Shown piece after piece: positions 15,750 through 64,000 of a stretch of DNA of 64,000 nt. Positions within the stretch are counted from its first letter, which is position 1. Each line of letters begins with the position of its first letter. The stretch is taken from NCBI GenBank assembly GCA_941918925.1, contig OW799236.1, positions 81,804,213 to 81,868,212 of the forward strand, in the 5' to 3' direction. The notes below the pieces were generated by a model. The model did not search any database. It saw nothing but the letters and a program-made list of their open reading frames with translations, and had not been told where the DNA came from. The translations under genes were made by a program, and so were the position numbers. The DNA is from Phyto melanocephala (lineage: Eukaryota; Arthropoda; Insecta; Diptera; Rhinophoridae).

Positions 15750-16147
15750 AAGTAAGAGCACTATATTCGGCTGTGCCGAATCTTTTATACCCACCACCAA
15801 TTTTGTGTACATTTAAAGCACAATATTTATTATTTTGTTAATCGCTATAGAATAATCTCTTTATAATAAAATATGTATCACTTTCTTTGTAGAGGGTGGT
15901 TAAATTTGAAGGGCCCATGTTGAAGGTGAACTACACCTAGTATTTAAATTTGTTTTCTGCATTTCACTTGACATTTCTCCATCTTCAAATTTACTCAATT
16001 TGATCCGCGGACAGATACACAAATAAGCAACGCTTTAAAGTTATTCAGGTTTTTTATAAAAATGGGCGTTCAAATAAAATTAAATAAAAATTAAATAAAT
16101 TTTTGTACAATTTATTAACTGTGCTGACACGTATATTCTTTTTCAAT

Positions 16148-17092
16148 ATGAGTTGTTCTAAACCAAAGTGCAGAAATAAGGCGGATGATCCAATGATTTC
16201 CTGTTGGCTGTGCAACGCAGTTTATCATGCAAAATGTGTTGACTTGGCAGCACGAACTGCAGACAATCTTCGTGAAGATAAAGGCTTACGTTGGTGCTGT
16301 AAAAAATTTATTATTTATGATGTTGAATTTTATTCATTTTTTAAAAATGCGCGAGATGAATTTGTCGGTATAAATAACGATCTAAAATGTTTATCCCAAA
16401 GATTTTTAAAATTCAAAGCATTATTTGATAATGCGTCATTCTCGCCCAAAAGAAAGAAAACAACTCCAACTTTAAACTCTTCACCTCCTGTTATGTCTAC
16501 TAACAACTCTTCTGTTGATCAAAACACTTCCGATAATTTACCTCGTCCGAGTCCGTCTACTATTTCTTCCATAGTTAATGTACCTGTAAAACCATCTCAA
16601 AATCCGAAAACTAATCCCTCGTTATTTTCATCGTCTCTCCCTCATAACACCGAAATATTACAACCTAATACTTATCGTATTCAACAGATTGCAAGTAATT
16701 TAAATTTTCAAAACGACATTCAACAAATTAATTCACATCCTCCGGCTGTGGTTTCTAGTCCGTTAAATAATCCTGGAATACTTAAAGTAATTTCTCCAAA
16801 GAAAACAATTTTCGCTGCTCGTTTTTCATCTGATACTACTTCTAACGCTGTTGCTGACTACATTAAATTAAAGCTTGGATACGATTGTGAATTATCTGTT
16901 TTTAAATTCAACTATTCGGAAAAACGGAGTAAATCTTCTTTTAAAATCATCGTACCAGAGGAATATTTTAATATTATTGTCAATCCTGAGTTTTGGCCAC
17001 CCAATGCTATAATACGTGAATATGAATATAGAAATGCTTCTCGTTCTGATATCGTTTATTTACCTACTCAAAATAATACCCAAAAAAACTAA
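16148..17092 (+). CDS. LINE ORF1 protein with PHD-like zinc finger
   Basis: ORF1 proteins of LINEs bind the element RNA in the retrotransposition particle. I start at 16148 because the zinc finger begins there (SCSKPKCRNK); an upstream in-frame ATG at 16103 would add 15 hydrophobic residues. Residues about 3-50 hold a C4HC3-like array: CSKPKC, CWLC, HAKC and WCC. A serine/proline/asparagine-rich linker follows, then a C-terminal domain (about residues 215-300, KTIFAARFSS...FKIIVPEEYFNIIV) of the type that follows PHD fingers in CR1-like ORF1 proteins. The frame of 314 residues is intact. ORF2 follows with essentially no spacer. Confidence 0.8.
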   Translation: MSCSKPKCRNKADDPMISCWLCNAVYHAKCVDLAARTADNLREDKGLRWCCKKFIIYDVEFYSFFKNARDEFVGINNDLKCLSQRFLKFKALFDNASFSPKRKKTTPTLNSSPPVMSTNNSSVDQNTSDNLPRPSPSTISSIVNVPVKPSQNPKTNPSLFSSSLPHNTEILQPNTYRIQQIASNLNFQNDIQQINSHPPAVVSSPLNNPGILKVISPKKTIFAARFSSDTTSNAVADYIKLKLGYDCELSVFKFNYSEKRSKSSFKIIVPEEYFNIIVNPEFWPPNAIIREYEYRNASRSDIVYLPTQNNTQKN

Positions 17093-19950
17093 ATAATTTT
17101 TCTACCGATAATCTTATTAATATTGTTTACCAAAATGTCCGTGGCCTTAATACGAAATTAACCACTCTTTATGCAAATAGTTTTGATTTTTCATACCACA
17201 TCATTGTCTTTACTGAAACCTGGTTAAACGATAAGAAATGTATTAATAACAACGAAATATTATCTTCAAAATACCAAATATTCAGACATGATCGATCACA
17301 TAAGTTGGGTGGAGGTGTGCTCATTGCCGCACATAACAATTTTCGTTGTGAAGAAATCAATGTTATACTTAACGATGACATCGAATTTGTCGCTGTAAAA
17401 ATTCGACTGAGAAATACAAATTTATATATTACATGCTCATACATTCCTCCAAACTCTTCTCTGGATATATACAATAATCACATCTTTGCCATTGAATTTG
17501 TTTTGCAACAATCTATTCCATCTGATTTATTTATTGTTTTGGGAGATTTTAATCTACCTAACATATCGTGGAATAAATCTTCAGAAATAAACTATCTAAT
17601 TCCTACAGTTTCAAATGAATTTATTCACTCACTCACAAGCTATGGACTTTTTCAAATTAACTATGAAAACAATATTAATGGAAAACTTCTTGATCTTGCA
17701 TTTGTCAACCAGCCGATGGATATATTTTTACATAAAACACTTCCCGTTACTTACCCTGAAGATCGTTATCATCCTACATTAAAATTGGAAATATTTAATT
17801 TATTAAGCTTACCTGTTTTACTTCCTAACAAAATTAAACCCCATAAAGTTTTTTGCTTTTCTCGTGCAAACTATCAGATGCTTAACTCTTTGCTATCAAA
17901 CGTTAACTGGGATAGTATAATCTCTATCGAAAACTTAGATGATGTTGTTTCTCTCTTCTATTCAACATTACGCCGCTGCATTTCTGAAACTGTCCCAAAA
18001 ATTACAATTAGAAACAACAATATTGGGCCACCCTGAAATAATAAGTATCTCCGAACTATTAAAAACAGGAAAAACAAGTTATATAAGAAATATAAAAGGA
18101 CCGGATCATCTGTAGAATATACCAAATACTGTATTGCTCGTTCTTACTACAATTTGGCAAATAAATCTGCATACGACAACTATATAATCCGTATGATGTC
18201 GAAAATGAGATCAAATCCTAAATCGTTTTATAAATTTGTGAACTCTAAACGGCGATCGTCCGTTAATCCTAAATACTATAAATATGGATCAAATGACGCT
18301 GATGATGACGTTTCTATTTCCAATTTGTTTGCTGATTTTTTTTCAACTACCTACTCTAAAAAAGTATATAATAACATAACATCTTACCCATTTAATATAC
18401 CTCAATCATCTGGTGTACAATTCTCTTTTATTACTTATAAAACGACTCTTTCAAATTTATTATCACTAAATAATTCGTTTAATGCTGGTCCAGATGAAAT
18501 ACCAAATTGCGTTCTAAAAAATTGTGCAGAAAATTTATGTTACCCGCTTACTGCTATCTTTAACAAATCCATTAAATTAGGATACGTACCATTGATTTGG
18601 AAATTATCGTATATAATTCCGTTGTTTAAAAATGGAAGCAAAATTGAGATATCAAACTATCGTGGCATTGCTAAGCTGAGTGATATTCCCAAACTTTTTG
18701 AAAAAATTTTAACTGATAATTTATACTATCAAATTTCTTCGATTTTGTCACCGTGCCAACATGGCTTTTGTAAACATCGCTCTACAACGACTAATATTTT
18801 GGAGCTAACTACTACAATAAATGATGGTTTTATAAATAATATGCAAACTGATGCTATCTACACAGATTTTAGTAAAGCTTTTGATAAGGTAAACCATGAT
18901 CTCTTGCTTAACAAATTGTCATTAATGGGATTTACGGATATGACAATAAAATGGTTAAGATCATACTTGTCTTTAAGAACTCAACAAGTTAAGTATGGAA
19001 GTGCTACGTCTAATGCTATCAAAGTTCCTTCTGGTGTTCCGCAAGGTAGCCACCTTGGTCCTATTTTATTTACCTTATTCATAAACGATCTACCTTCAGT
19101 TATTCAGCACTCTAAAGTTTTGATGTATGTCGATGATGTCAAAATTTTTCGTTCTTCTAATAATCCCGAAGATCAACTTTTCCTTCAATCTGATATTGGC
19201 AAATTGGTAAATTGGTGTGAAATCAACTTAATGGAGCTGAATATAAAAAAATGTAAGCATATGTCCTTTTTCAGAATTAAGAAATTGGATTTATTTTATT
19301 GCATAAATGAGTGTAAACTTGATAAAGTTCTGAATTTTCTTGATCTTGGTATTTTGCTTGATCACCAATTAAATTTTCGTGACCATATTTCTTTAATTGT
19401 TAACAAAGCAAATGGTGTACTTGGATTTATGAAGAGGTGGTGCAAGGAATTTCTAGATCCTTATATTACGAAACAATTATATTCATCGTTAGTTCGACCT
19501 ATTCTAGAATATGGATCGATTATTTGGGATCCTTGCTATAATATTCATATTGATAGTATTGAGTCTGTACAAAAGAAGTTTTTAATATTTTGTCTTCGTG
19601 GCCTTGGATGGAATTCGTTTTTACTACCTTCATACGAAAGCAGACTCTGTCTTATAAAATTACTAACTTTAAAAAGTCGTCGTTCAATGCTGAGTTTTTC
19701 TTTTGTGCTGGGCCTAATTCAAGGCGATATCGACTCAGAATTCATGCTAAGTAAAATATCATTTAATGTTCCAACCAGACCAACTCGAAATTTCCGTTTT
19801 ATTAACTTAAAATACTATAGAACCAACTATGCTAATAATGATCCTCTTCGTCGTATATGTGAAAACTTTAATAATTATTATCACCTTATTGGCCTTAATG
19901 AAAGTAAAGAAATTGTTAAAAGAAATATCATTTTATATTTAAATCGTTGA
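17089..19950 (+). pseudogene. LINE ORF2 (endonuclease + reverse transcriptase), one nonsense codon
   Basis: ORF2 nicks the target and copies the RNA into DNA. The frame is open from ORF1's end with no early ATG, suggesting re-initiation or coupled translation after ORF1. The APE-type endonuclease shows QNVRGLNTK, FTETWLND, a GGG segment and LGDFNLPNISW. A single in-frame TGA at 18034-18036 interrupts it just after the endonuclease, where related proteins commonly have a Trp after Pro-Pro. The same frame then continues to 19950 with reverse transcriptase motifs: YTDFSKAFDKVNHDLL, SGVPQGSHLGP and YVDD (19126-19137; many relatives have YADD). A conserved C-terminal region (MKRWCKEFLDPYITKQLYSSL) follows. 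It is otherwise undamaged, so recently inactivated. Confidence 0.8.
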
Positions 19951-52620: not shown

Positions 52621-53240
52621 CTAGAAAAGCCCGGCGCGCGTTGCTACGCTCCTTAATGAATAAAAATGCATTCTTAATTTTAATTAATTATCAAGAGCAA
52701 AAAGCTAAGACTTATAACTTTTTTTAATAGGCGTGGCACTGCCCACTTTTCTAATCACGAAACTGTATAGTCATGACAGCTCAATATGTGTGCAAAGTTT
52801 CAGAAAAATCGGTTGAGTTCAAGTAGCTGAAAGTGATAAGTTTTTTTATGGGCGTGACACTGCCCACTTTTCTAATCACGAAATTGTATAATCATGAGAT
52901 CTCAATATGTATGTGCAAAGTTTCAGAAAAATCGGTCCAGTGCAAGTCCCTCAAATTATAACTTTTTTTGTGGGCGTAGCCCTGCCCACTTTTATAATCA
53001 GGAAATTATATAGTCATGACAGCTCAATATGCGCGCAAAGTTTCAGAAAAATCGGTCAAGTGCAAGTAGCTAAAAATGATAGCTAATTTTCTATGGGCGT
53101 GGCACTGCCCATTTTTACCACCCATAAACACCTCCCGGAATGTGTACAGCAACTTGCCAAAGTTAGAGTCCGATCGGCTTTACAGTTTAGGAGTCTATAG
53201 CTAACACACACACACAGAGTTTCACTTTTATAAATATAGA
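52621..53240 (-). mobile_element. Non-autonomous Helitron, copy 3
   Basis: Minus-strand start TCTATATTTATAAAAGTG after A; end CGCGCCGGGCTTTTCTAG before T. About three full roughly 121-bp units plus a part, and a short CA tract. It is the shortest of the three copies. Confidence 0.85.
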
Positions 53241-53869: not shown

Positions 53870-54740
53870 CCCGTGTGAAGGCTGAAATCAACTTTTAGAA
53901 AATTTTTTTTTTCACAAATCTGCCTTATATCAATCTTTTGGAACAAATCACTATTAACAGCCTCACATTTTTCTGAGATATGAGTGAATAAACATCGCTG
54001 TCTCTGTTTTCTTCCATATTTTTGCCACCAAACTTTATGTTTTATGCCCTGGGATAATTTATAAAAAAAACGTTACTTTTTATAGATACGCTATGCTTTT
54101 AAAACTATTTTGGAAAATTCAGTCAGTAATCGGCAAAGCTATAGGCAAAAGTTATTTGGAAAAATACATATTTCCTAAAATGCATCATGTTTCTCAAGTT
54201 CCCAAATATTTTTTGAGCACAAAATGGACTAAAAATTTCTAGCCATTGCTTTGAAAGTTATAAGTAAAAAAATCTAATTAAATTTAACTAAGATATAAGC
54301 ACCAAAATACAACTGCTTTGATGTTTTTTCTAAAAATATAATAAAATAAAATATATTTTAAGTTCATGATGGCCCCTGCGACCTCAAAATGGCGTCAAAT
54401 AAATTTATTTATTTATTAATTTTAAAGTATCACATAAAATGGATTGCCTAGTAGAATATAGTAAATTATGAAAATATTAATCCGAGATGGCGCCCTCAAT
54501 AAAATGCGTCAAATATAGTAATTTCGGACTTGTCCTCTTTAAGCCCCACAATATTAGCATTAAATGAAATGGCTTGACCAGTGAAATTAAAAATCAAAGA
54601 TATCTTAAGCCATTAATATGGGTATCAAATTAAAGGGCTTTACTAGTATAGTACAGGTTATTATATACAAAGTCAAGTTCAAAGATAGCGTCTTTAATAA
54701 TAAAGCAAATTGGCGTATAATATTAAATCTGAAATCTAGG
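53870..54740 (-). repeat. Family A repeat, reversed, cut by the Polinton
   Basis: Read on the minus strand it matches family A from the internal blocks (AAGCCCTTTAATTTGATACC near 54636) through GCAGTTGTATTTTGGTG to the AAAGTTGATTTCAGCC block near 53880. On the plus strand it is collinear with the copy at 11830-11900 up to AATCTGAAATCT, then stops abruptly at 54735-54740 where the Polinton begins. Confidence 0.75.
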
Positions 54741-55320
54741 AGTAGTATATTTGTGGGCTTTCTGGGACACCAAATTCATCCTTATGGAGATTCCATGAGG
54801 ATGAATTTTTGTTTTAAATTTTCATCCCAATGGTAATTTCCCATAAGGATGAATTTTTGTTAATAATTTAAAATATTCATCCCAATGGTAATTTCCATAA
54901 GGCTGATTTTTAATTTTTGGTTGATATGCATTTTGTTATTGGTTTGTTTGTCTCAAGTTTCAATTAAAATTTTTTTATTGTCTGCAATTTACTCATACGG
55001 ATGATTTTTTTGTTGTTAAAAATTTTTTTAAAATTGTAATATGAGAAAATGCAAAGGTAAATTATTATTTGTAAATACATATATAAATACTTACATATAT
55101 AAATATGTGTATACAAACTTACATGTTTTAGAAAATGTATGTGCAAAATTGTTTAAATAAGAATGTTAAGAGATGAATTTTCACAGATGAATAATTTAAG
55201 AGAAAATAATTTTTATTGAATGTAATTATAGTTTTCCATAAAGATGAATTTTATTTTTTAAAGATGAATAATTAAAGAGAAAATGATCGTTTGAGTGATT
55301 TTTATTAAAATAGTAAAGAG
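54741..55320. repeat. Polinton left terminal region with palindromic subterminal repeats
   Basis: After the AGTAGTATATTTGTGGGC start, a unit of about 55-60 bases recurs three times (54771-54920): TTCATCCnnATGG...CCATnAGGATGAA followed by TTTTTGTT. Each unit is itself an inverted repeat. More diverged GATGAATTTT/GATGAATAATT units follow near 55170-55290. Polinton terminal inverted repeats are hundreds of bases long, so this may be the left one; the matching right end is not in the window. Terminal protein priming by the polymerase is expected to start at the outer base. Confidence 0.6.
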
Positions 55321-55529
55321 GGATTGAATAAAAAAATATATGGAAATAAACTCAAGATATACTAAACCAACATTCTTAATTGATACAAAAATATATTAAA
55401 AAGTTACATGAGTATTTACATTCCTAATACTCAACCTATTTTTTAATTAGGTACCATTAAAAATTCCAAGAATGTATTAAAATGTCTTTAAAATTAAATT
55501 ATTAATTGTTAAAAAGTTGCTAAGTTAAC

Positions 55530-55817
55530 ATGTCGAGAAATATAATTCTTAAATTTTTGGAAGACTTCAACGGATATATTTTTATTGAACACCTTTGTCT
55601 TATTAATAATTTTTTAAAATTAACACAGAGTTGTAAAGACACTGAGGAAATACCTGTGCATGGAAAACACGGTGTTCATTACAAAAATTGTATTTGGGCA
55701 ACGGATTCCACAACTGAGGGTCCTGACACATGCAGATGTATGATATACGGGCAGAAAAAAATTTTTATAGAGAATCTAATAAGGAGATATTATTTATTGG
55801 AAAAACGTATAAAATAA
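55530..55817 (+). CDS. Unrecognised 95-residue Polinton protein
   Basis: I do not recognise this protein. It lies just inside the terminal repeat region and is transcribed inward. It has a protein-like composition: a hydrophobic, helical N-terminus (ILKFLEDFNGYIFIEHLCLI), then a segment with several Cys and His (HGKHGVHYKNCIW...TCRCMIYG) that could bind metal, and a charged C-terminal helix (ENLIRRYYLLEKRIK). The start at 55530 is the first ATG in the frame. Its position and intact frame in a high-A/T setting favour a real gene over chance. A role in regulation or host interaction is only a guess. Confidence 0.45.
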   Translation: MSRNIILKFLEDFNGYIFIEHLCLINNFLKLTQSCKDTEEIPVHGKHGVHYKNCIWATDSTTEGPDTCRCMIYGQKKIFIENLIRRYYLLEKRIK

Positions 55818-56405
55818 CATTTTGTACATATATACAATAATTTAAACATAATTTGTGTATCAGTTAATTAATTATTTATTCTACATTTTAAGTAAGCATT
55901 ATTAATAAACAAAATTTTTCAAAACATAAAACAAAATCTTCTTTTTTCACGTATGTAGATGTGTATATGAAATACATTTGTTGTTTTGTCGTGTGCTATA
56001 GCTGAAATGAAATTTAACGCTTTAATTTTATGATAACAAAGTTTTACATAAGACATTTGAAGTTTTATTATATTTTTTATTTCTTAAATTGCACTTTTAG
56101 TTGAAAAATAAGCTGAGTATATTTTTAAGTATTCTTGGAAGTTTTCCTGAAAGTTTATTGACTTTAAAATGTATTTTCTTTCAATTGTGTTAGACATAGT
56201 CATGATAATTTAAAAAATTGTAAGTTAACTAAAGAGACAAAATATGAAAGGTTGTTGACATTAGTAAACAAAATATTTACACTTTTGTTAGAATAGGTCA
56301 AGATTTTAGAATTTTGTATGAGTGTAAATTTTATGAATATGATAGAATTTTTCGTAACGTATTTAAACAATCAATCATTTTTAAAAAAACTGTGCAAGAA
56401 GCGAC
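55818..56405. other. Polinton spacer
   Basis: AT-rich, without a gene I can support. It probably contains the 3' end signals of the preceding gene and the promoter of the next. Confidence 0.45.
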
Positions 56406-56606
56406 ATGGATTTTCTTAAAAAACCTAAGGAAAACGCTGTAAGCAAAAACAACCAAAACGGAGAAAGGACAATAGAAAAGGAAAGGATACATATAGAGGA
56501 AGTGATCATCCTACCGCCAATAGACCTCCAACTATTCCTGGCATTATATGATGGGAATGACAACATTATTTTAAAAGCAGCGGAAAATTTTGAAGCGAAA
56601 AAATAA
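56406..56606 (+). CDS. Possible 66-residue Polinton protein
   Basis: A short, highly charged frame (many Lys, Glu, Asn) with a less charged segment VIILPPIDLQLFLALYDG in the middle. Unrecognised. It converges with the protease gene, whose stop is about 50 bases away. The middle segment looks more protein-like than the shadow frame on the other strand, but the small size leaves real doubt. Confidence 0.35.
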   Translation: MDFLKKPKENAVSKNNQNGERTIEKERIHIEEVIILPPIDLQLFLALYDGNDNIILKAAENFEAKK

Positions 56607-56659
56607 TCAACATCATTTTATTGTATTATTTGTTTATATATCTTTTTTTATTTTTATTT

Positions 56660-57121
56660 TCATAATTGTTTAAAAAAAAAAATCTTAAATAACCTTAGTA
56701 CTATTGTATCATTTTTATATAAGTTAAAATAATTAAAAATTCTTAATATTTGATTAAAAGATACATTTTTACTTCTTAAATAAATAAAAATACAGCAGTA
56801 TAAACCACATAAATTAGATGTTTCACTTTGAATTCGTCTTGTATTGCAGATGAAAGTTTTGGAATTTCTTCTTAAAAATGAAATGAATTGTTTAATAGGT
56901 GGTTGGCCAGCAGAGCAGAAGAATTCAGCTGCTTTATTTTTAGGAAAGTAAAATGCAACCCAATGCTGTCCAGGTTTATGTGATGGATCAGTGTTAGCAA
57001 TATAAAAACATGGTTTTTTAACTGATTTTGTTGGTAATTTATTGCATGCATAAACACCTTTAAATTTACTCTTTGTTATATTGTTTGAATTCAAAGTATT
57101 TTTTATTGTAATTGCATTCAT
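56660..57121 (-). CDS. Polinton adenain-like cysteine protease (PRO)
   Basis: In adenoviruses and, by homology, in Polintons this Ulp1/adenain-type protease processes structural proteins during maturation. The 153-residue product has His53 in GQHWVAFYF, the Gln98 of the oxyanion hole in RIQSE, and the nucleophile Cys105 in SNLCGLYCCIF. The acidic member of the triad normally sits in an F-F-D-S-type motif; here the motif reads EFFCSAGQPP with Cys69 in that place, while Glu66 lies three residues before. The ATG overlaps the stop of the capsid gene upstream as ATGA (57118-57121). This is the last gene of a five-gene minus-strand block. Confidence 0.85.
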   Translation of the reverse strand: MNAITIKNTLNSNNITKSKFKGVYACNKLPTKSVKKPCFYIANTDPSHKPGQHWVAFYFPKNKAAEFFCSAGQPPIKQFISFLRRNSKTFICNTRRIQSETSNLCGLYCCIFIYLRSKNVSFNQILRIFNYFNLYKNDTIVLRLFKIFFFKQL

Positions 57122-58386
57122 AGCGTTTGAAAAATACTGCGAGACTTATCAATTTCTATTATGCTATCAAATTCACAATACACTAAACAGGTAATCGCTT
57201 CAGTAATTGGTTTTCCAAAACGTCCTTCAATGCGAATTGTCCCTTGATTTATTAAATTTCCACAGTTAGAGTTGTTATTATGATCAGGTGTTAAATCAAA
57301 AGCGAGCATAAAATATCCGTTATCAAAAAGTTCTTTAGTTATTTGATGACCTTTATCAAAATGATGAATTCCAGTTCCTTTAAATAGTGTTTGATAACCA
57401 CGGGTGCTTATAATTGTGCCATTATTATAGTTAAATTCAATTGGTTGTGCGGGAAATTGCACTCCATTAACAACCAAATTGAATCTTTGTAGGTTAAAAT
57501 GTTGAAAGTTAAATGGATTTTCTTTTCTATCTCCTGTATAAGCTTTATTAGATACCATACCAAAAATTACAAAATTAGGTAGCTGTCCAAGTATAACATT
57601 ATCTAAAGATAGCGAGTGGTTTCCAGGATGTATAGTAAATGTTTTTATTTCCACTCTCTTATATGGATATATTGCATTTTTTGATTGCAACACGTTGTGA
57701 TGTGCCATTAAAATATTATTATTGATAGCAAGATGATTTATGTATAAATTAGCTTCGTGTATTTTTAAATTACATTCATTTTTATCTCCACCTTCTAAAA
57801 TATAGAATTCGGGTTTCTCCAAATTTAGCGTTACCTTAATATCAACATTATTTAGCAAGTATTTTTGTTGATTAAACACATCTACATGAAGTTTTCCAAA
57901 AAGCTCTACTTTTTTTCCAATTTTAAATAATTTTCTTCTTTTATCTAATCCGGGGTTTTCTTTCTCAATTAATGAATTAATTTTATTTGTATCAACTGCC
58001 CAACCACAAGATTCAAGATGTGTTGATGTTGCATCGTTTCCATAATTTAACAATGTTTCCATATATGCTCTATAGTGATAGTTATTGTCAGGTTGGGATA
58101 CATTTTTATTATTTAGATGAACTATACAGTTTCTAAATAATGAGTGTAAAAGGTTATTAACAACACTTCCGCTTCCTTTAAATTCAACGACTAGTCTAAG
58201 ATAAATACTATTGAGATCTCTATAAGTTTCTCCATTTCCTAATGATACAAACTCAATAGTACTAGAATTATCCAAAGAAGCTATTGGGTTGTAGGATATT
58301 TCTTCAGTTTTAATGACACTGGTTTGAATTGGAGGAGCTTCAAATAAATCTAATTCACTTTTCATACATTCTATAAATCCAGACAT
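57118..58386 (-). CDS. Polinton major capsid protein (double jelly-roll)
   Basis: The hexon-like protein expected to build the icosahedral shell. The 422-residue length is lower than in many large viruses but fits Polintons. Recognisable family segments are SLGNGETYRDL near residue 50, LHSLFRNCIVHLNN near 85-98, YINHLAINNNILMAHH near 215, NPFNFQHFNLQRFNLVVNG near 290, GYFMLAFDLTPD near 355 and the C-terminal RIEGRFGKPI...CLVYCEFDSIIEID. Asn-rich loops are consistent with a beta-sandwich coat protein. The start overlaps the end of the upstream gene by 16 bases, and its stop overlaps the protease start. The frame is intact. Confidence 0.88.
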   Translation of the reverse strand: MSGFIECMKSELDLFEAPPIQTSVIKTEEISYNPIASLDNSSTIEFVSLGNGETYRDLNSIYLRLVVEFKGSGSVVNNLLHSLFRNCIVHLNNKNVSQPDNNYHYRAYMETLLNYGNDATSTHLESCGWAVDTNKINSLIEKENPGLDKRRKLFKIGKKVELFGKLHVDVFNQQKYLLNNVDIKVTLNLEKPEFYILEGGDKNECNLKIHEANLYINHLAINNNILMAHHNVLQSKNAIYPYKRVEIKTFTIHPGNHSLSLDNVILGQLPNFVIFGMVSNKAYTGDRKENPFNFQHFNLQRFNLVVNGVQFPAQPIEFNYNNGTIISTRGYQTLFKGTGIHHFDKGHQITKELFDNGYFMLAFDLTPDHNNNSNCGNLINQGTIRIEGRFGKPITEAITCLVYCEFDSIIEIDKSRSIFQTL

Positions 58387-58808
58387 TTCAAATTTCCAAA
58401 AATATCTTTAAAGTTCTTTCCTCTGCAACGTTTTAATTTATTCTGCGGTCTCTGTTTTAAACGTTTTAGTTTTATACGCTTCCCTTTGCCTCTTTGCATT
58501 GTTTTAATCTTGTCGATAGCAGCCTCTGTAATGTCATTCATGACTTTTCTTCCTTGATTTAATAAAATTTGTTTTACTGGTTTTGTTCCAATTTCCTCCA
58601 ACATTTCTTTTCCAATATCTAATGATTTATTTTTTAAAATATGCAAACCTGTTTTCAATAAAGGTTTTAGATGGGAGAATAATGCTGAAAAAAGTGATCC
58701 AATACCACGTCCATACTGTATAATTCTTGGTGTATGATATATTTCACCAATATTTTGTAAGTTATTTCCAGACTGATTATTATAATAATTTGTATACATC
58801 ACATCCAT
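58371..58808 (-). CDS. Basic amphipathic minor structural protein of the Polinton
   Basis: This 145-residue protein has a Gly-rich, amphipathic segment near residues 33-55 (GRGIGSLFSALFSHLKPLLK), a helical middle and a very basic tail (RGKGKRIKLKRLKQRPQNKL). Proteins of this build occur beside the capsid gene in many Polintons and recall the membrane-active or DNA-binding minor proteins of adenoviruses (pVI/pX type) in layout; homology to those is not shown here. It lies between the two capsid genes on the same strand and overlaps the major capsid gene by 16 bases. Met4 is an alternative start. Confidence 0.7.
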   Translation of the reverse strand: MDVMYTNYYNNQSGNNLQNIGEIYHTPRIIQYGRGIGSLFSALFSHLKPLLKTGLHILKNKSLDIGKEMLEEIGTKPVKQILLNQGRKVMNDITEAAIDKIKTMQRGKGKRIKLKRLKQRPQNKLKRCRGKNFKDIFGNLKCLDL

Positions 58809-58848
58809 GGTTGTAATAAAAATGATTTATCTTTCTATTACATAATCA

Positions 58849-59760
58849 TTATATACGTTTCTTTTTAAAGTGTAAAGTGCAATAAACTGGAATATATTCT
58901 AACAACTCCATTACTTTCCCTTCATCATTTCGAATCATTATTGAAATATCATTAATATTAAAAGTTTCGATTGGAAAATATTCAATACGGCTAAAATGAA
59001 TATAATTTTTTAATGTCGATATTGAAAATATTTTTAAACATTTCGTTTTTTTACTTCCTACGTATCGAGGTTTAATTATATCAGTGTAAATAAATACGAT
59101 TTCATCTATTCCAGTGGATTCATTTTTATTAATAAAGTTGTTTATATTGGTAGGCAAATCATTTAAAGATTTATCTAAAATATATTTTTTTGACGATAAA
59201 ATAGAATCTTTTCTATTAGCTTCAAACTCTTGATTAATAGTTTGAGCATTTTGTTTGATATTTGAGCTACCTTTATTTTCGTTTCTTTTTATATTTGAAT
59301 TTCTTTTATTGTCACCTTTCTTTTCTTCGAATGGTGTTATAGTTTTTAGAATATTATCATCCACATTATTTAAACGTTTTGAAATTTTATAACCATTCTC
59401 TAAATTTGTTTTTGTTTGCTCGTTTGTTTTATTCATAAGTTCTTTAAATTTCAATTTAATACTTTCATGATTAATATTAACATCCGGATTTGGTGTTTTT
59501 AATATTTCATAATCTAAAGGTTGGTTTAACACATTTCGTTTTTTACGTTTTATAACATTTTCATTATCTTCTTTTTTTGTTTTATTCATTAATGAAAAAG
59601 AAATATCTGATAATCCAACTACCCATTTATCGTTTAGGTATAAAGATTGCTTTAGCAAATTTGTAAAAGTGCTTGAAGAGTTTTTATAAATATCTGTTGA
59701 ATCATTACTTAATAAAGTAACATAAAGATCACTTTCTTCCATACTTGAAGCCATCTTCAA
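58849..59760 (-). CDS. Polinton minor capsid (penton-like) protein
   Basis: The N-terminus (YVTLLSNDSTDIYKNSSSTFTNLL, then KWVVGLSDISF) matches the start of Polinton penton-like single jelly-roll proteins, where the pattern VTLxSNxS...F...L.....LxxxWxVGLxxI is typical. The C-terminus (residues about 222-303: FIYTDIIKPRYVG, LKIFSI, HFSRIEYFPIE, ISIMIRNDEGKVM, TLHFKKK) matches the conserved end. The middle (about residues 60-215) is unusually Lys/Asn/Glu-rich and looks disordered rather than like a beta sandwich. The protein would occupy the five-fold vertices. It sits 54 bases after the integrase gene and 40 before the basic minor protein. Met3 or Met7 are alternative starts. Confidence 0.8.
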   Translation of the reverse strand: MKMASSMEESDLYVTLLSNDSTDIYKNSSSTFTNLLKQSLYLNDKWVVGLSDISFSLMNKTKKEDNENVIKRKKRNVLNQPLDYEILKTPNPDVNINHESIKLKFKELMNKTNEQTKTNLENGYKISKRLNNVDDNILKTITPFEEKKGDNKRNSNIKRNENKGSSNIKQNAQTINQEFEANRKDSILSSKKYILDKSLNDLPTNINNFINKNESTGIDEIVFIYTDIIKPRYVGSKKTKCLKIFSISTLKNYIHFSRIEYFPIETFNINDISIMIRNDEGKVMELLEYIPVYCTLHFKKKRI

Positions 59761-59814
59761 AAGAAATAATTGAAGTTAGTCGTTGTTTGCTATACATATA
59801 TGATTAAAATTGGG

Positions 59815-60741
59815 TTATTCGCCTATGTCGGTTTGATGAATCCATGAATTATGTTCCTTTCCGAAACCTAGCCATTTTACAAACAGCTTTTTTCCACGAC
59901 GTTTCAACACTTTTTCTACTAAATAAACGTTGGGAACTTTAGTTTTTAATAATTCTTCTTCATAAAATCCACCTTTTATTATATTTCCCTTAAGATCTTT
60001 AAGTTGATATGTTATTGGATTTGTTACAAAACTTTTATTTATTTGAAAAACTTCTGAAGACCAATTTGGTGTATATCCTTTCTCAAAAACATTTTTATAT
60101 TTGCTTATGCGAACAAAATCATTTGTCTTATATTTTCCTCTTTTAAATATTTTTAAGTTATTGTATATAGTTCTAAGAAGCCTTTTTTCATTTTTCTTGT
60201 TAACAGAGTTGGGTCTCATTTTAATAGTACGGTGATAAGATGAATTATACTCTTGCAATAATTTATCTAATATATTTATCCACTTATAATTTCCTTGCAT
60301 ACTGAATTGTTTCCACATTTTAGTTTTTAAAGTTCTGTTAAAACGCTCAACTACAGATGCCTTCATATTTGAAAAAGTGTGATAATGATTAATATTAAGT
60401 TTTTTCATTAGACTTTTAAAGTCTTTATTATAAAATTCTGTTCCTTGATCAGAATGAAGATTTTTGGGAGATTTTTGTTCGTTCAACTTTATAATATTTT
60501 TAAATGCTTTTGAAATCTCTGTTCCTGTTTTAGATTTCAGTGGTGCAGCATACGCATACTTTGAGAATACATCTATTACAGTAAGCATATACTTGAAACC
60601 TTTATTAAATTTTGAATATGGAATCATCTCCACTAAATCTATTTGCCATGTATCTAGAATCCCCTTCTGAATAAATCGTCGACGTTTAAAGTTTTTTCTT
60701 GCTTGACGATGAAGTTCATTAACAAGAGTTTGTTTACTCAT
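59815..60741 (-). CDS. Polinton integrase with chromodomain (INT)
   Basis: Retroviral-type DDE integrase that joins the element ends to target DNA. In the 308-residue product the catalytic residues are visible: Asp35 in TWQIDLVEM, Asp98 in LHSDQGTEFYN and Glu132 in SVVERFNRTLK, spaced as in the rve core. A C-terminal SH3-like segment (NDFVRISKYK...) and a chromodomain (about residues 272-305: YLVEKVLKRRGKKLFVKWLG) follow. Chromodomains may steer insertion to particular chromatin (family knowledge). The N-terminal zinc-binding domain of retroviral integrases is not obvious. The start at 60741 is only 41 bases from the divergent ATPase start. The frame is intact. Confidence 0.93.
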   Translation of the reverse strand: MSKQTLVNELHRQARKNFKRRRFIQKGILDTWQIDLVEMIPYSKFNKGFKYMLTVIDVFSKYAYAAPLKSKTGTEISKAFKNIIKLNEQKSPKNLHSDQGTEFYNKDFKSLMKKLNINHYHTFSNMKASVVERFNRTLKTKMWKQFSMQGNYKWINILDKLLQEYNSSYHRTIKMRPNSVNKKNEKRLLRTIYNNLKIFKRGKYKTNDFVRISKYKNVFEKGYTPNWSSEVFQINKSFVTNPITYQLKDLKGNIIKGGFYEEELLKTKVPNVYLVEKVLKRRGKKLFVKWLGFGKEHNSWIHQTDIGE

Positions 60742-60782
60742 ATTTATTTAAGGAATGTAAAGCTTCGATTCATTTACGTGTT
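60742..60782. promoter_or_regulatory. Divergent promoter region between INT and ATPase
   Basis: Only 41 bases separate the divergent start codons, so promoter elements for both directions must lie here or inside the coding sequences. ATATTTATTTAAGG near 60741-60754 is the only TATA-like sequence. Leaders must be very short. Confidence 0.4.
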
Positions 60783-61469
60783 GTGTATGAATGTGTAAAC
60801 ATGTTTCAACAGTTTATATATCCATTTACAATGATGGTGTGTGGTCCTTCAGGTTGTGGGAAATCTACATTTATTAAAAATTTGATTGAAAATCAACACT
60901 TAATATCTAAAGGCATTGATCGAATTGTATGGTGTTTTTCTGAAAAAAATTCACTACCATTAATAAAAAATGTTCAGTTTATTAAAGGAATTCCAGAAAC
61001 TTTTAGTACTAATGATAAAGAATCAACTTTAATAATATTGGATGATTTAATGCTTGAATCGTCAAATAAAAAAGTTTGTGAACTCTTCACTAAGGGGTCA
61101 CATCATAGAAATTTAGCTGTAATTTTAGTAACACAAAACATTTTCCATAAAGGCGCTTATTCAAGAGATATTTCTTTAAACTCTAAATATATAGTAATGT
61201 TTAAGAATCCAAGGGATAAGTTACAATTTCATCATTTGGCTCGTCAAGTATATCCCGAAAATTCAAAAGCTTTGGTTGATGTATATAATAAATGCACTCA
61301 ACATGCTCATGGTTATTTATTAATTGATCTTACACAACAAATACACAACGCATTAAGATTCAGATCTGATATATTCAATAATACTCACTATTCAATATTT
61401 GCAAATATAAACAATGACTTCCAATCTAAAATTGTTGAGGGAGAACAAACATATTCTTTATGTTCTTAA
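60783..61469 (+). CDS. Polinton FtsK/HerA-type genome-packaging ATPase
   Basis: Homologous to the A32-type ATPases that pump DNA into capsids of large DNA viruses. The 228-residue protein shows Walker A GPSGCGKST at 21-29, Walker B LIILDDLM at 83-90 and the sensor-type VILVTQN at 113-119, then the family segment KYIVMFKNPRDKLQFHHLA. Met7 is an alternative start and would lengthen the tiny divergent promoter. The gene heads a plus-strand block of three genes; its last 56 bases overlap the next gene. The frame is intact and of normal length. Confidence 0.9.
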   Translation: MYECVNMFQQFIYPFTMMVCGPSGCGKSTFIKNLIENQHLISKGIDRIVWCFSEKNSLPLIKNVQFIKGIPETFSTNDKESTLIILDDLMLESSNKKVCELFTKGSHHRNLAVILVTQNIFHKGAYSRDISLNSKYIVMFKNPRDKLQFHHLARQVYPENSKALVDVYNKCTQHAHGYLLIDLTQQIHNALRFRSDIFNNTHYSIFANINNDFQSKIVEGEQTYSLCS

Positions 61470-61758
61470 AAAAGCGAAACCCAAACTACGTAATGCAATT
61501 TTAAAATATGTTGATGATGTTGCTATTAAAGCTATACATGAAATACTTTTCAATGTTATTAAAAAAAATCATAAAATAAACAAAACAGTTTTTGAAAAAT
61601 TAAAACCATATAAAAATGCGATTAGAAAAGTTTGTTCACCACAAACCTCTATGAAACAAAAGAGGAAACATCTTATTCAAAAGGGAGGATTCTTACCAAT
61701 TATTATTTCTTCAGTATTAAGTGGAGTTATTGGAAAAATTTTGGAAAATGTCAAATAA
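61414..61758 (+). CDS. Basic core-like Polinton protein with C-terminal hydrophobic helix
   Basis: The 114-residue protein begins SNLKLLRENKHILYVLKKAK and ends with a basic stretch (KQKRKHLIQ) and a glycine-led hydrophobic helix (GGFLPIIISSVLSGVIGKIL). This layout, basic helical domain plus KR...QKGGFLP, is common in Polintons and resembles adenoviral pX/mu-type core proteins. I infer a DNA-condensing or membrane-active virion component. The start lies inside the ATPase gene in another frame, and the end overlaps the next gene by 11 bases if that gene starts at 61748. Confidence 0.75.
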   Translation: MTSNLKLLRENKHILYVLKKAKPKLRNAILKYVDDVAIKAIHEILFNVIKKNHKINKTVFEKLKPYKNAIRKVCSPQTSMKQKRKHLIQKGGFLPIIISSVLSGVIGKILENVK

Positions 61759-62353
61759 TTTATCTAAACTAATAGTTATACAGCCATCAGTTTATGAGAA
61801 GTTTATAAACAAAAATTCTGATTCCACCTTTTTGCATCGAAAGCTTTTACCACTATATGCTTCACACACGTTAAAAGATATTAACAAATGGTATTATATT
61901 AAGCAAGAATTAGCGAAATATTTAATTGAAAAACAAAAATCATCAAATCAGATCATAAGTTCTAAATATAACAATTTACGTGATAATGAAACTCAGACAA
62001 GAAAAACATACAAAAAGCATATTGAAACTCAAACAATGCAATCAAAGCAAAGTAGTGTTGGAACACAATGTAATATAAACTTGCCAGAGGATATTTATAC
62101 TTACGATCACGATGATCAAATTGATATGGATACAACAGTACAAAAAATAAATCCTTCTTCTGCATCTTCAGTAGGCAAACGACTAAAAAATTTTTCAAAT
62201 AGTGGAACACCAAAAATTAGAATATTATCAAAGGAAGAAAATCATACAAAATTGAAGCAATCAACTTTACCGTATCAGTATTCCCCACGAGTAACTAGAA
62301 ATCGTAAAAAGTTAGATTATGAAACTGAAAATGTACAATGGCAAAATATTTAG
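61748..62353 (+). CDS. Polinton protein of unknown function
   Basis: I prefer the start at 61748 (SNNLSKLIVIQPSVYEKFIN) to the in-frame ATG at 61721, because proteins in this position in other Polintons begin in a similar way (K-L-I-V-x-P-x-x-Y). The N-terminal 75 residues look folded and helical. The rest is rich in Thr, Gln, Ser and Lys, with two similar TQTRKTYKKH / TQTMQSKQ segments, and looks disordered. Function unknown; its place after the core-like protein suggests a virion or assembly role (inference). Confidence 0.65.
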   Translation: MSNNLSKLIVIQPSVYEKFINKNSDSTFLHRKLLPLYASHTLKDINKWYYIKQELAKYLIEKQKSSNQIISSKYNNLRDNETQTRKTYKKHIETQTMQSKQSSVGTQCNINLPEDIYTYDHDDQIDMDTTVQKINPSSASSVGKRLKNFSNSGTPKIRILSKEENHTKLKQSTLPYQYSPRVTRNRKKLDYETENVQWQNI

Positions 62354-62516
62354 AAAATAAAACACATTTAATAATTGAAAATATAAAGTTTGTTTATTAT
62401 TGATAAAAAAATATAATTTCTTAAAATAAATAATTGCAATAGTTATAGTTTGTTTACATAAAAGTTTAATGTATTTAGAATTAATATACAACAATTATTA
62501 TGGAATTTTGTATATT
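62354..62516. terminator. Convergent 3' ends in the Polinton
   Basis: The 163 bases between the plus-strand block and the polymerase gene hold AATAAA on the plus strand (near 62356) and TTTATT (AATAAA on the minus strand) near 62390, suitable for cleavage of both convergent transcripts. Confidence 0.45.
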
Positions 62517-64000
62517 TTAATATTCTATTTCCATTAGAAATTTATCTAAACTATCATCATTATTAAAGCTCTCTATAATATAATTTTGATCTACAAATTC
62601 TACTTCATTATCATTTATTTTACAGATATCTTTATCATTATTATATTCTATATCCATTAAATAATAATCATCACTATCATTATTAATAAATTTTTCTTTA
62701 TAGTGACCCCAAGCTAGGGTATTAATGTTATTCACACATATAAATCTTTTATTATCTAAATAGCTTAAGGATATCTTGTTAATAAGGGATGTATATACAG
62801 TGTGTAGTTTTGATTTAAAAATATACATATTTCTATAGTAAATTTTTTTATTATATAAGCAATTTTTGTAGTCAGAAAGACTTAGTTTTTTTGTTACGTT
62901 CACTTTGACACCCTTAGCTTTTTTAACTTCTTCCATATTTTCTGTTTTAAACGAATACATTTTCGCTCTCAACCCAACAAACTCTTTCATTATCTTCCCA
63001 AAATTTTCATCTTTCATCATACCTAAGACCTTTTTGTTTTTTTGTGGAATATGAAATTGATTATTAGCCTCATATTCAGATGTGTCAAACCTATCTTCAA
63101 TATCTTTTTTAATGTCTTCATAAAAGTCATCCGTTTCTATTGTGTATATAAATGAATCTGTATCCATATAATTAAGTTCAACTTTAGTTTTATATTTAGG
63201 TATCATATATTCATAATGGAAATCATACATCTTCCATTTTGAAAGTTCTAAAATTGTAAAACCTAAATAAATTGGCTTATTATAGTATGAGTAAGTTCTA
63301 TTTAATTCAACCGCGATCATATTTTCTTCAAATATATTACAAGAATTAAATTCTGGCTTAGCAATGAGGGCACGTGCTCCAAGTTTTTTACCAATACTTT
63401 CCCATTTATTCACAATTTTAATATCTTTACGTTTATCAACGTTTTCCATTGTTTTACCGTAAACAGCATTGTTTAATAATTTAAAAAAATTTTTTTCAAA
63501 TGAGTTTTTCGCATTAGTTCTATGAAAGTTATTCAAGGAAATATATTTCTTTAACCAATTGGATTGTCGAAACTTTAATATTCTATGAATTTTGGCTAAC
63601 TTTAAACCATGTTTTAAACATTGCTGCAAATTTTTATAATGAATTATATATTCATATTTATTATGTAGATCAACAATCAATTTTGTTTCTTTTGACTCGG
63701 GAGGTTTTTTATTTTCACAACAGAATGGTAGATTATTATGAATGTCATGGATTTCAACTGGATATATCAGATCAACTTCTAATATATATCCAACACTTGA
63801 ATCAGTGGGAATTGAGTTCAAAGAAAAATTATTAATATCTTCTACCCACTCAAAATTACCCTCAGGCAGAGCTTCTGACATTGCCCAACCATATAAATTG
63901 TTTGCATCTAAATACATTAAGTATTTAGAAGGTAATTCATTATTATAGTCTGATAAATATTTATTATTTGCAATTGAATGTCTTTTTGTACATTGTACTA
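62517..64000 (-). CDS. Polinton protein-primed DNA polymerase B (POLB), C-terminal part
   Basis: Family B polymerase that replicates the linear element from a protein primer. The frame stays open past 63917 (an internal Met) to the window edge, so the start and the N-terminal exonuclease domain lie outside. Visible motifs are palm motif A YLDANNLYGWAM (DxxNLYG, near 63870-63915), motif B KLLNNAVYGKTMEN (near 63445-63487), motif C YMDTDSFIYT (near 63145-63177) and the KxKGV segment KKAKGVKVNVTKKL. The acidic C-terminal tail (NDKDICKINDNEVEFVDQN) is family-like. No frame break. It converges with the plus-strand block. Confidence 0.92.
   Translation of the reverse strand, partial: VQCTKRHSIANNKYLSDYNNELPSKYLMYLDANNLYGWAMSEALPEGNFEWVEDINNFSLNSIPTDSSVGYILEVDLIYPVEIHDIHNNLPFCCENKKPPESKETKLIVDLHNKYEYIIHYKNLQQCLKHGLKLAKIHRILKFRQSNWLKKYISLNNFHRTNAKNSFEKNFFKLLNNAVYGKTMENVDKRKDIKIVNKWESIGKKLGARALIAKPEFNSCNIFEENMIAVELNRTYSYYNKPIYLGFTILELSKWKMYDFHYEYMIPKYKTKVELNYMDTDSFIYTIETDDFYEDIKKDIEDRFDTSEYEANNQFHIPQKNKKVLGMMKDENFGKIMKEFVGLRAKMYSFKTENMEEVKKAKGVKVNVTKKLSLSDYKNCLYNKKIYYRNMYIFKSKLHTVYTSLINKISLSYLDNKRFICVNNINTLAWGHYKEKFINNDSDDYYLMDIEYNNDKDICKINDNEVEFVDQNYIIESFNNDDSLDKFLMEIEY

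Follow-up and report, generated by a model that had tools for sequence, protein, structure and literature searches.

A complete, very young Polinton/Maverick in the fly Phyto melanocephala and integrated mirror derivatives suggestive of linear, protein-primed replication

The stretch of Phyto melanocephala DNA analysed here (64,000 nucleotides of contig OW799236.1, positions 81,804,213 to 81,868,212, hereafter the window) contains at its right edge a Polinton/Maverick element with all recognisable core genes in open frames, and the family to which it belongs is very young, with dozens of near-identical copies on contigs C1-C6. Among the members of the family are mirror elements, in which the same arm of the element is present in inverted orientation at both ends and which are flanked by perfect target site duplications (TSDs). 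Taken together, the data make it likely that the window element is a complete, very young Polinton/Maverick whose family multiplies as free linear DNA and thereby yields mirror molecules that are integrated in trans. An earlier sequence-only reading of the window had described a recently inserted Polinton/Maverick with every visible gene intact, and this observation is confirmed in a form stronger than first stated.

The element is 13,940 bp long, with approximately the left two thirds inside the window and the final 4,680 bases past its edge, where the next 9.8 kb to the right (L009) were obtained to read the element beyond position 64000. The left boundary is exact at 54741, where the sequence begins with AGTAGT, and the right terminus is at L009:4680, directly before a TCTAGG that repeats the six bases preceding the left end; the two copies, at 54735..54740 and, outside the window, at L009:4681-4686, form a perfect 6-bp TSD. 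The left terminal inverted repeat (TIR) occupies 54741..55363 on the plus strand, with subterminal tandem repeats at 54791..54918 (plus strand), and has its partner at L009:4032-4680, the two being 623 and 649 bp long; their alignment of 649 columns contains 3 mismatches and 26 gap columns. Long, near-identical TIRs and a 6-bp target duplication, the latter found here and in 17 of 20 copies described below, are both hallmarks of Polintons/Mavericks. A truncated copy lacking the right end is ruled out by the right terminus and the matching TCTAGG located beyond the window. The sequence-only reading had found no broken frame over 9 kb and had named stops or frameshifts past 64000 or a missing right end as what would tell against it; every frame that it named is present and open in the window, the polymerase frame is open beyond it as well, and the rightward extension that it proposed recovered both the other TIR and the N-terminal part of the polymerase.

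The gene content follows the same pattern. The major capsid protein (MCP; 57118..58386, minus strand) has the double jelly-roll fold expected of a Polinton capsid, and family assignments are confirmed for the remaining diagnostic genes: an adenain-like cysteine protease (PRO; 56660..57121, minus strand), an RVE-family integrase (INT; 59815..60741, minus strand; PF00665, 2.9e-16) with a C-terminal chromodomain-like segment (PF00385, weak and below cut-off), and an A32-like packaging ATPase (ATP; 60801..61469, plus strand; PF04665, 1.4e-6, above cut-off) with the Walker A and B motifs at residues 15 and 77, respectively.

The age of the family was assessed from its copies across the genome (740 Mb in 9 contigs, the window being G000:C4:81804213-81868212). 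Of 223 candidates for a 1-kb polymerase query, 40 matches were scored, all shown as 100%, with 18 at the full 1804 bits and 22 at 1800 bits. Short probes matched the genome 122 times for a 40-mer from the MCP gene (at most 2 mismatches; each of the first 100 listed is exact), 84 times for a 40-mer from the polymerase gene (at most 2 mismatches; 65 exact; on contigs C1-C6) and 202 times for a terminal 31-mer (at most 1 mismatch; the first 100 listed all exact), whereas the reversed patterns of all three probes gave no matches. An exact same-strand MCP match lies at the expected distance, 5,700 ± 3 bp, from at least 46 of the 84 polymerase matches, and an exact MCP match within 5.6-5.8 kb of at least 56; both are lower bounds, as 22 MCP matches are unlisted. 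The 56600-61500 piece was then compared among the 20 best-scoring copies, the window's included, a sample that favours good copies. Two are rearranged; the other eighteen are colinear and differ by 0-6 substitutions over 4,851 bases, with a few small indels at most. All six frames (PRO, MCP, the small protein next to it, the putative penton gene PEN, INT and ATP) are unbroken in 13 of the 20 copies, and in three more there is just a one-base slip altering the last PRO codons; one copy has stops in PEN and the end of PRO, and another an ATP frameshift. In a 4-kb polymerase piece read from eight copies, of which the C-terminal part was translated and the rest compared as DNA, six copies (again counting the window's) show 0-3 substitutions relative to the window copy and a C-terminal part free of stops to its natural end, and indels are present in two.

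The 18 colinear copies differ pairwise by 0.065% on average and by 0.165% at most. Changes private to single copies number 16, or 1.8e-4 per site (a window-private change at 59235 is not counted), which at fly mutation rates of 2.8-5e-9 translates into an insertion age of roughly 37,000-65,000 generations. The 20 coding changes in these copies comprise 13 amino-acid, 5 silent and 2 stop changes, against a neutral expectation of 72/23/5%; since they fit that expectation, the frames are open owing to the youth of the copies, and selection, if it acts at all, acts on the source lineage and not on the inserted copies. The comparison of copies that the sequence-only reading had called for thus bears out a recent insertion, with near-identical copies genome-wide and perfect duplications at many sites, and continued mobility of the family is consistent with the data.

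The flanks of the copies point to integration at each site. In 17 of the 20 sampled copies both termini are intact and flanked by a perfect 6-bp duplication, all 17 duplications being different, and in the other three the left end lies outside the stretch obtained. Eight further terminal pairs include seven with matching duplications and spans of 8.3-29.3 kb, and an eighth, with termini 69 kb apart, that is mismatched; five more elements also carry matching 6-bp duplications. Two inverted pairs behave differently: at C5:53.0 Mb the flanks are unmatched, and at C3:130.67 Mb there are no termini at the expected place and the centre is only 92.7% alike; neither pair is counted among the mirror elements below. 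Overall, the duplications match in 29 of 35 terminal pairs, are mismatched in 2 and unreadable in 4. As the matching duplications differ between copies, the copies arose by integration and not by duplication of chromosome segments. At C6:7764650-7793928 a distance of 29.3 kb separates two termini whose 6-bp flanks match (GATGTA), and a nested insertion may lie between them.

The arrangement of the termini provides the evidence for mirror elements. When paired, the exact termini listed for C1, for C2 and for C3 as far as 73.4 Mb (99 of the 202 matches; the 100th listed, at C3:127.3 Mb, was left out as its partner is unlisted) resolve into 45 closed pairs and 9 single ends. Normal pairs, with one MCP and one polymerase match on the same strand, account for 33 of the 45, and 30 of these span 13.7-14.3 kb; four pairs hold two MCPs in inverted orientation, and the remaining eight show deletions or odd arrangements. 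The four double-MCP mirrors are located at C1:55.2 Mb (12,379 bp), C1:132.6 Mb (12,380 bp), C1:85.9 Mb (13,711 bp) and C1:163.4 Mb (12,641 bp), and the polymerase probe is missing from the first three, in the sense of no polymerase 40-mer at up to 2 mismatches, and present in the fourth. One of the remaining eight, a mirror-like element of 8,296 bp at C3:45.9 Mb, likewise lacks the polymerase probe, and almost the whole 1.6 kb compared at its two ends shows 99.2-99.6% identity, far past the normal TIR. All five, which as far as their partly read interiors go have one arm repeated in inverted orientation at the two ends, are flanked by perfect 6-bp duplications (TATATC, ACTGTG, TATATA, CACAGT and GAGAAT). 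Among the 45 closed pairs no mirror of two polymerase arms was found, the numbers being small. The excess of MCP over polymerase probe matches would be compatible with derivatives retaining the capsid side, but unequal conservation of the two probe sequences may also contribute. Two other unusual arrangements were seen: at C2:40813457-40827684 the ends have 1.1 kb in common, more than the normal TIR, as though the sequence of one end had been duplicated at the other, and a 9.5-kb element at C3:36829374-36838867 lacks the polymerase probe and has two MCP matches that point the same way.

The junctions of three mirrors can be described in window-equivalent coordinates. The C1:55.2 element runs forward to 59437 and then backward from 61888; that at C1:85.9 runs forward to 61554 and then backward from 61638, forming a near-full palindrome with an 84-base loop; and that at C1:163.4 runs forward to 63798 and then backward from 57823, its arms deriving from two subfamilies. 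The alignments overlap at these joins by 10, 17 and 2 bases. The centres of C1:55.2 and C1:132.6 are identical in 600 of 600 bases, their spans differ by a single base pair, and their loops are oppositely oriented and their TSDs different, which shows that one mirror molecule was inserted twice and spread as a whole; as this molecule is without the polymerase probe and yet present at two loci, its spread must have required help in trans.

We read the mirror elements as snap-back or strand-switch genomes that would have arisen during protein-primed linear replication and been integrated with help in trans. In protein-primed systems such as those of adenovirus and phi29, a terminal protein is bound to the DNA ends and synthesis proceeds by strand displacement. 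By analogy, the Polinton family would multiply as free linear DNA, with the polymerase starting at protein-bound ends and copying by strand displacement, and the integrase would insert the linear products and duplicate 6 bp of the target. Occasionally the growing strand may fold back or switch to the opposite strand, giving a mirror molecule with the same arm at both ends; such ends would still be valid origins and integrase substrates, so that the molecule could be replicated and integrated using the proteins of complete relatives. A packaging signal on the capsid side, if present, would favour mirror molecules with two such ends, which is speculation. That protein-primed replication as free linear DNA is going on now, or was until very recently, with mirror genomes maintained and re-integrated in trans, is a bolder proposition, which we advance tentatively and find slightly harder to accept than to doubt.

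The protease deserves separate attention with regard to the ability of the family to form particles. It retains His53, Gln98 and Cys105 and carries Cys69 where the catalytic acid would be expected. In an alignment of 134 rows (133 listed relatives plus the window copy, one source being 120 of 1,386 matches), the acid column holds Asp in 122 rows, Cys in 10 and Ser in 2, whereas the His is retained in all 134 and the nucleophilic Cys and the Gln in 132 each. In a profile alignment the acid column corresponds to a Glu in adenain and to an Asn in pS273R of African swine fever virus (ASFV), and a non-acid third member of the triad therefore has precedent. Seven Cys rows including the window copy form one clade with support of 100/100 in a tree of 131 rows (P0125, P0140 and P0141 are excluded from the protease trees), and a quick tree made without the acid column requires 5 changes between Asp and non-Asp. 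A single clade for all nine Cys rows is rejected by the approximately unbiased (AU) test (p 0.0065); as the tested group was named after the first tree had been viewed and one row, P0248, sits on a long branch, we conclude only that Cys at the acid position probably arose more than once. Cys69 as a private defect of the window copy is ruled out, the codon being invariant in the 18 colinear copies and the Cys common to the closest relatives.

Several points weigh against the proposed mechanism. No terminal protein was identified in the element, and the family is seen here as integrated sequence, not as free DNA, transcripts, proteins or particles. The protease has no acid at the usual catalytic position. 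The mirror elements are few, their interiors were read at the centres and ends and otherwise deduced from probe positions and spans, and the inverted pair at C5:53.0 Mb has no matching TSD, so inverted arrangements come about by other routes too. The arms of C1:163.4 differ in MCP offset (3,458 versus approximately 2,961 bp) and thus join two different copies. Finally, exact identity at the break-points amounts to about 6-7 bases at two of the joins and to almost none at the other, so that the sequence gives no clear sign of a fold-back at an inverted repeat, and microhomology at the joins is weakly suggested at best.

Among other explanations, the strongest is that the family is young but idle, its burst being over and its copies silenced, for example by PIWI-interacting RNAs, with a weak or dead protease, no particles, and frames that are open from shortness of time. 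The neutral pattern of the coding changes does indicate decay after insertion, and the Cys at the acid position would suit a failing protease; however, the coding changes are silent on whether source copies still move, and the relatives that share this Cys in their protease, five predicted proteins 64-74% identical to it of which four are full length, fit a working gene in that lineage, even if all protease relatives are predicted proteins and such databases favour open frames. On balance we regard an idle family as unlikely, while giving it more weight than any other rival.

A second possibility is that the mirrors were formed by recombination between inverted chromosomal copies and not during free linear replication. 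The existence of many copies in both orientations, the joining of two subfamilies at C1:163.4 and the unmatched flanks at C5:53.0 speak in its favour, but the matching 6-bp TSDs on the outer ends of five mirrors are what would be expected from the insertion of a ready-made molecule, and the occurrence of the same mirror molecule at two sites with different TSDs also argues against it; we therefore think recombination a distinctly improbable source of these mirrors. Least of all, and with hardly any probability left to it, could the copies be segmental duplications or assembly artefacts, with which very high identity by itself would be compatible, given that TSDs match in most terminal pairs and are mutually different in the main sample, a variation from copy to copy that rules out segmental duplication.

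The family B DNA polymerase lies on the minus strand, with its C-terminal part at 62517..64000 and its N-terminal part at L009:1-2371, and is identified by DANNLYG, NNAVYG and YMDTDS, which we take to be the family B motifs A, B and C. Pfam and PHROG searches gave no assignment for the C-terminal part and a PDB sequence search two chance-level matches, and the N-terminal part had no Pfam polymerase match, the two halves having been searched separately. The frame crosses the window edge unbroken through the junction codon ATA and extends to an ATG at L009:2371, with 790 codons in L009, the spanning codon and 493 codons in the window, 1,284 in all. The segment L009:1302-1412 (111 bp, starting with GTTAGT and ending with TTTTTGCAG) is stop-free and a multiple of three, and is probably an in-frame GT-AG intron, removal of which would leave 1,247 residues.

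The second capsid protein is less certain. In Polintons the penton protein is placed near the MCP, according to PMC4028283, and the protein at 58849..59754 (minus strand) is by its position a putative penton (minor capsid) protein; it had no Pfam match above cut-off, no PHROG match and 0 matches in a PDB sequence search. The gene identities given by the sequence-only reading thus stand for the protease, integrase and ATPase families and for the MCP fold, while the penton is placed by position and the polymerase by its motifs only. Its suggestion that the element could form particles is likewise supported by the capsid fold and the three families, and weakened by the Cys at the protease acid position and the positional penton assignment. 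Searches of the element proteins against PHROG returned general transposase and ATPase matches only, and a scan of viral contigs for relatives of the integrase and MCP found 0.

The remaining open reading frames (ORFs) are small. Between the MCP and the penton position lies a small protein (58371..58808, minus strand) with no match above cut-off; on the plus strand are an accessory ORF of 95 aa (55530..55817) and an ORF of 66 aa (56406..56606), both without a family match, an ORF of 114 aa with a hydrophobic C-terminal part (61414..61758) and an ORF of about 201 aa (61748..62353). Beyond the window, a 149-aa ORF with internal amino-acid repeats and no match above cut-off is found at L009:3049-3498, and a 100-aa ORF at L009:3596-3898 has a second likely intron, of 56 bp, on its 5′ side. 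Elsewhere in the window, a tandem array of 3.5 copies of a 122-bp unit lies at 52691-53116. The statement that nearly every other transposon in the window is dead was given a rough look only, and at least one other element is nearly intact: at 16088-19950, in what by eye resembles a long interspersed nuclear element, the second frame is interrupted by just one stop, with 319 open codons before it and 637 after it.

In its overall anatomy the element resembles the Polintons/Mavericks (Polintoviruses) in its RVE integrase, A32-like ATPase, adenain-like protease, double jelly-roll capsid, TIRs, 6-bp TSD and, by the motifs taken as those of PolB, its polymerase, and differs from other Polintons in the Cys at the protease acid position and in the mirror derivatives of its family, of which the papers searched gave no instance. 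It shares the AGTAGT terminus and the 6-bp duplication with vertebrate Mavericks as described in PMC8097293, where the intact vertebrate elements are said to be intronless, in contrast to the probable introns in or near the polymerase-side genes seen here. The same paper gives a maximum of 38 intact elements for a single vertebrate genome, under whole-element criteria stricter than ours. Its anatomy places the element among Polintons/Mavericks of the adintovirus type: the size of about 14 kb and the gene set agree with adintoviruses, now named Eupolintoviridae (PMC12451622), among which Drosophila-associated adintovirus 1 is 14.5 kb and Drosophila-associated sequences are 13.3-14.6 kb (PMC8363768), and MCP homologues are named in Diptera. 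The likeness is drawn from anatomy and not from a virus phylogeny, and the present family differs in being integrated in many near-identical copies. In the portions of the literature searched we found no fly Polinton family this young and mostly unbroken, no integrated mirror Polinton derivatives, which may be in print elsewhere, and no Cys protease clade, although no search was aimed at the Cys substitution itself.

The discovery of capsid proteins in Polintons raised the question, open ever since, whether these elements are viruses (PMC4028283), and Polinton particles had not been observed according to PMC8097293. Many near-identical, mostly unbroken copies in one animal genome, together with mirror derivatives recording how the DNA is copied, make the virus-or-transposon question testable in one animal, from tissue, with nothing needing construction; were particles made despite the Cys-for-acid protease, this would be a live animal polintovirus. 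In this respect the ASFV protease pS273R provides a parallel, being of the same fold class and likewise without an acid at the third triad position, with Asn in the place of the Cys found here. The closest parallel to the mirrors is with adenovirus, in which symmetric defective genomes are known. As described in PMC5033970, adenovirus has its packaging domain close to the left end, and its incomplete particles contain left-end DNA. The mirrors of the present family resemble such defective left-end genomes in having two like ends, in the absence of the polymerase probe from three of the four double-MCP elements and in the expected dependence on a helper, and differ in being integrated copies with TSDs, known from their sequence; if the proposed origin is correct, they would be natural examples of defective genomes in an animal Polinton, kept together with their target duplications.

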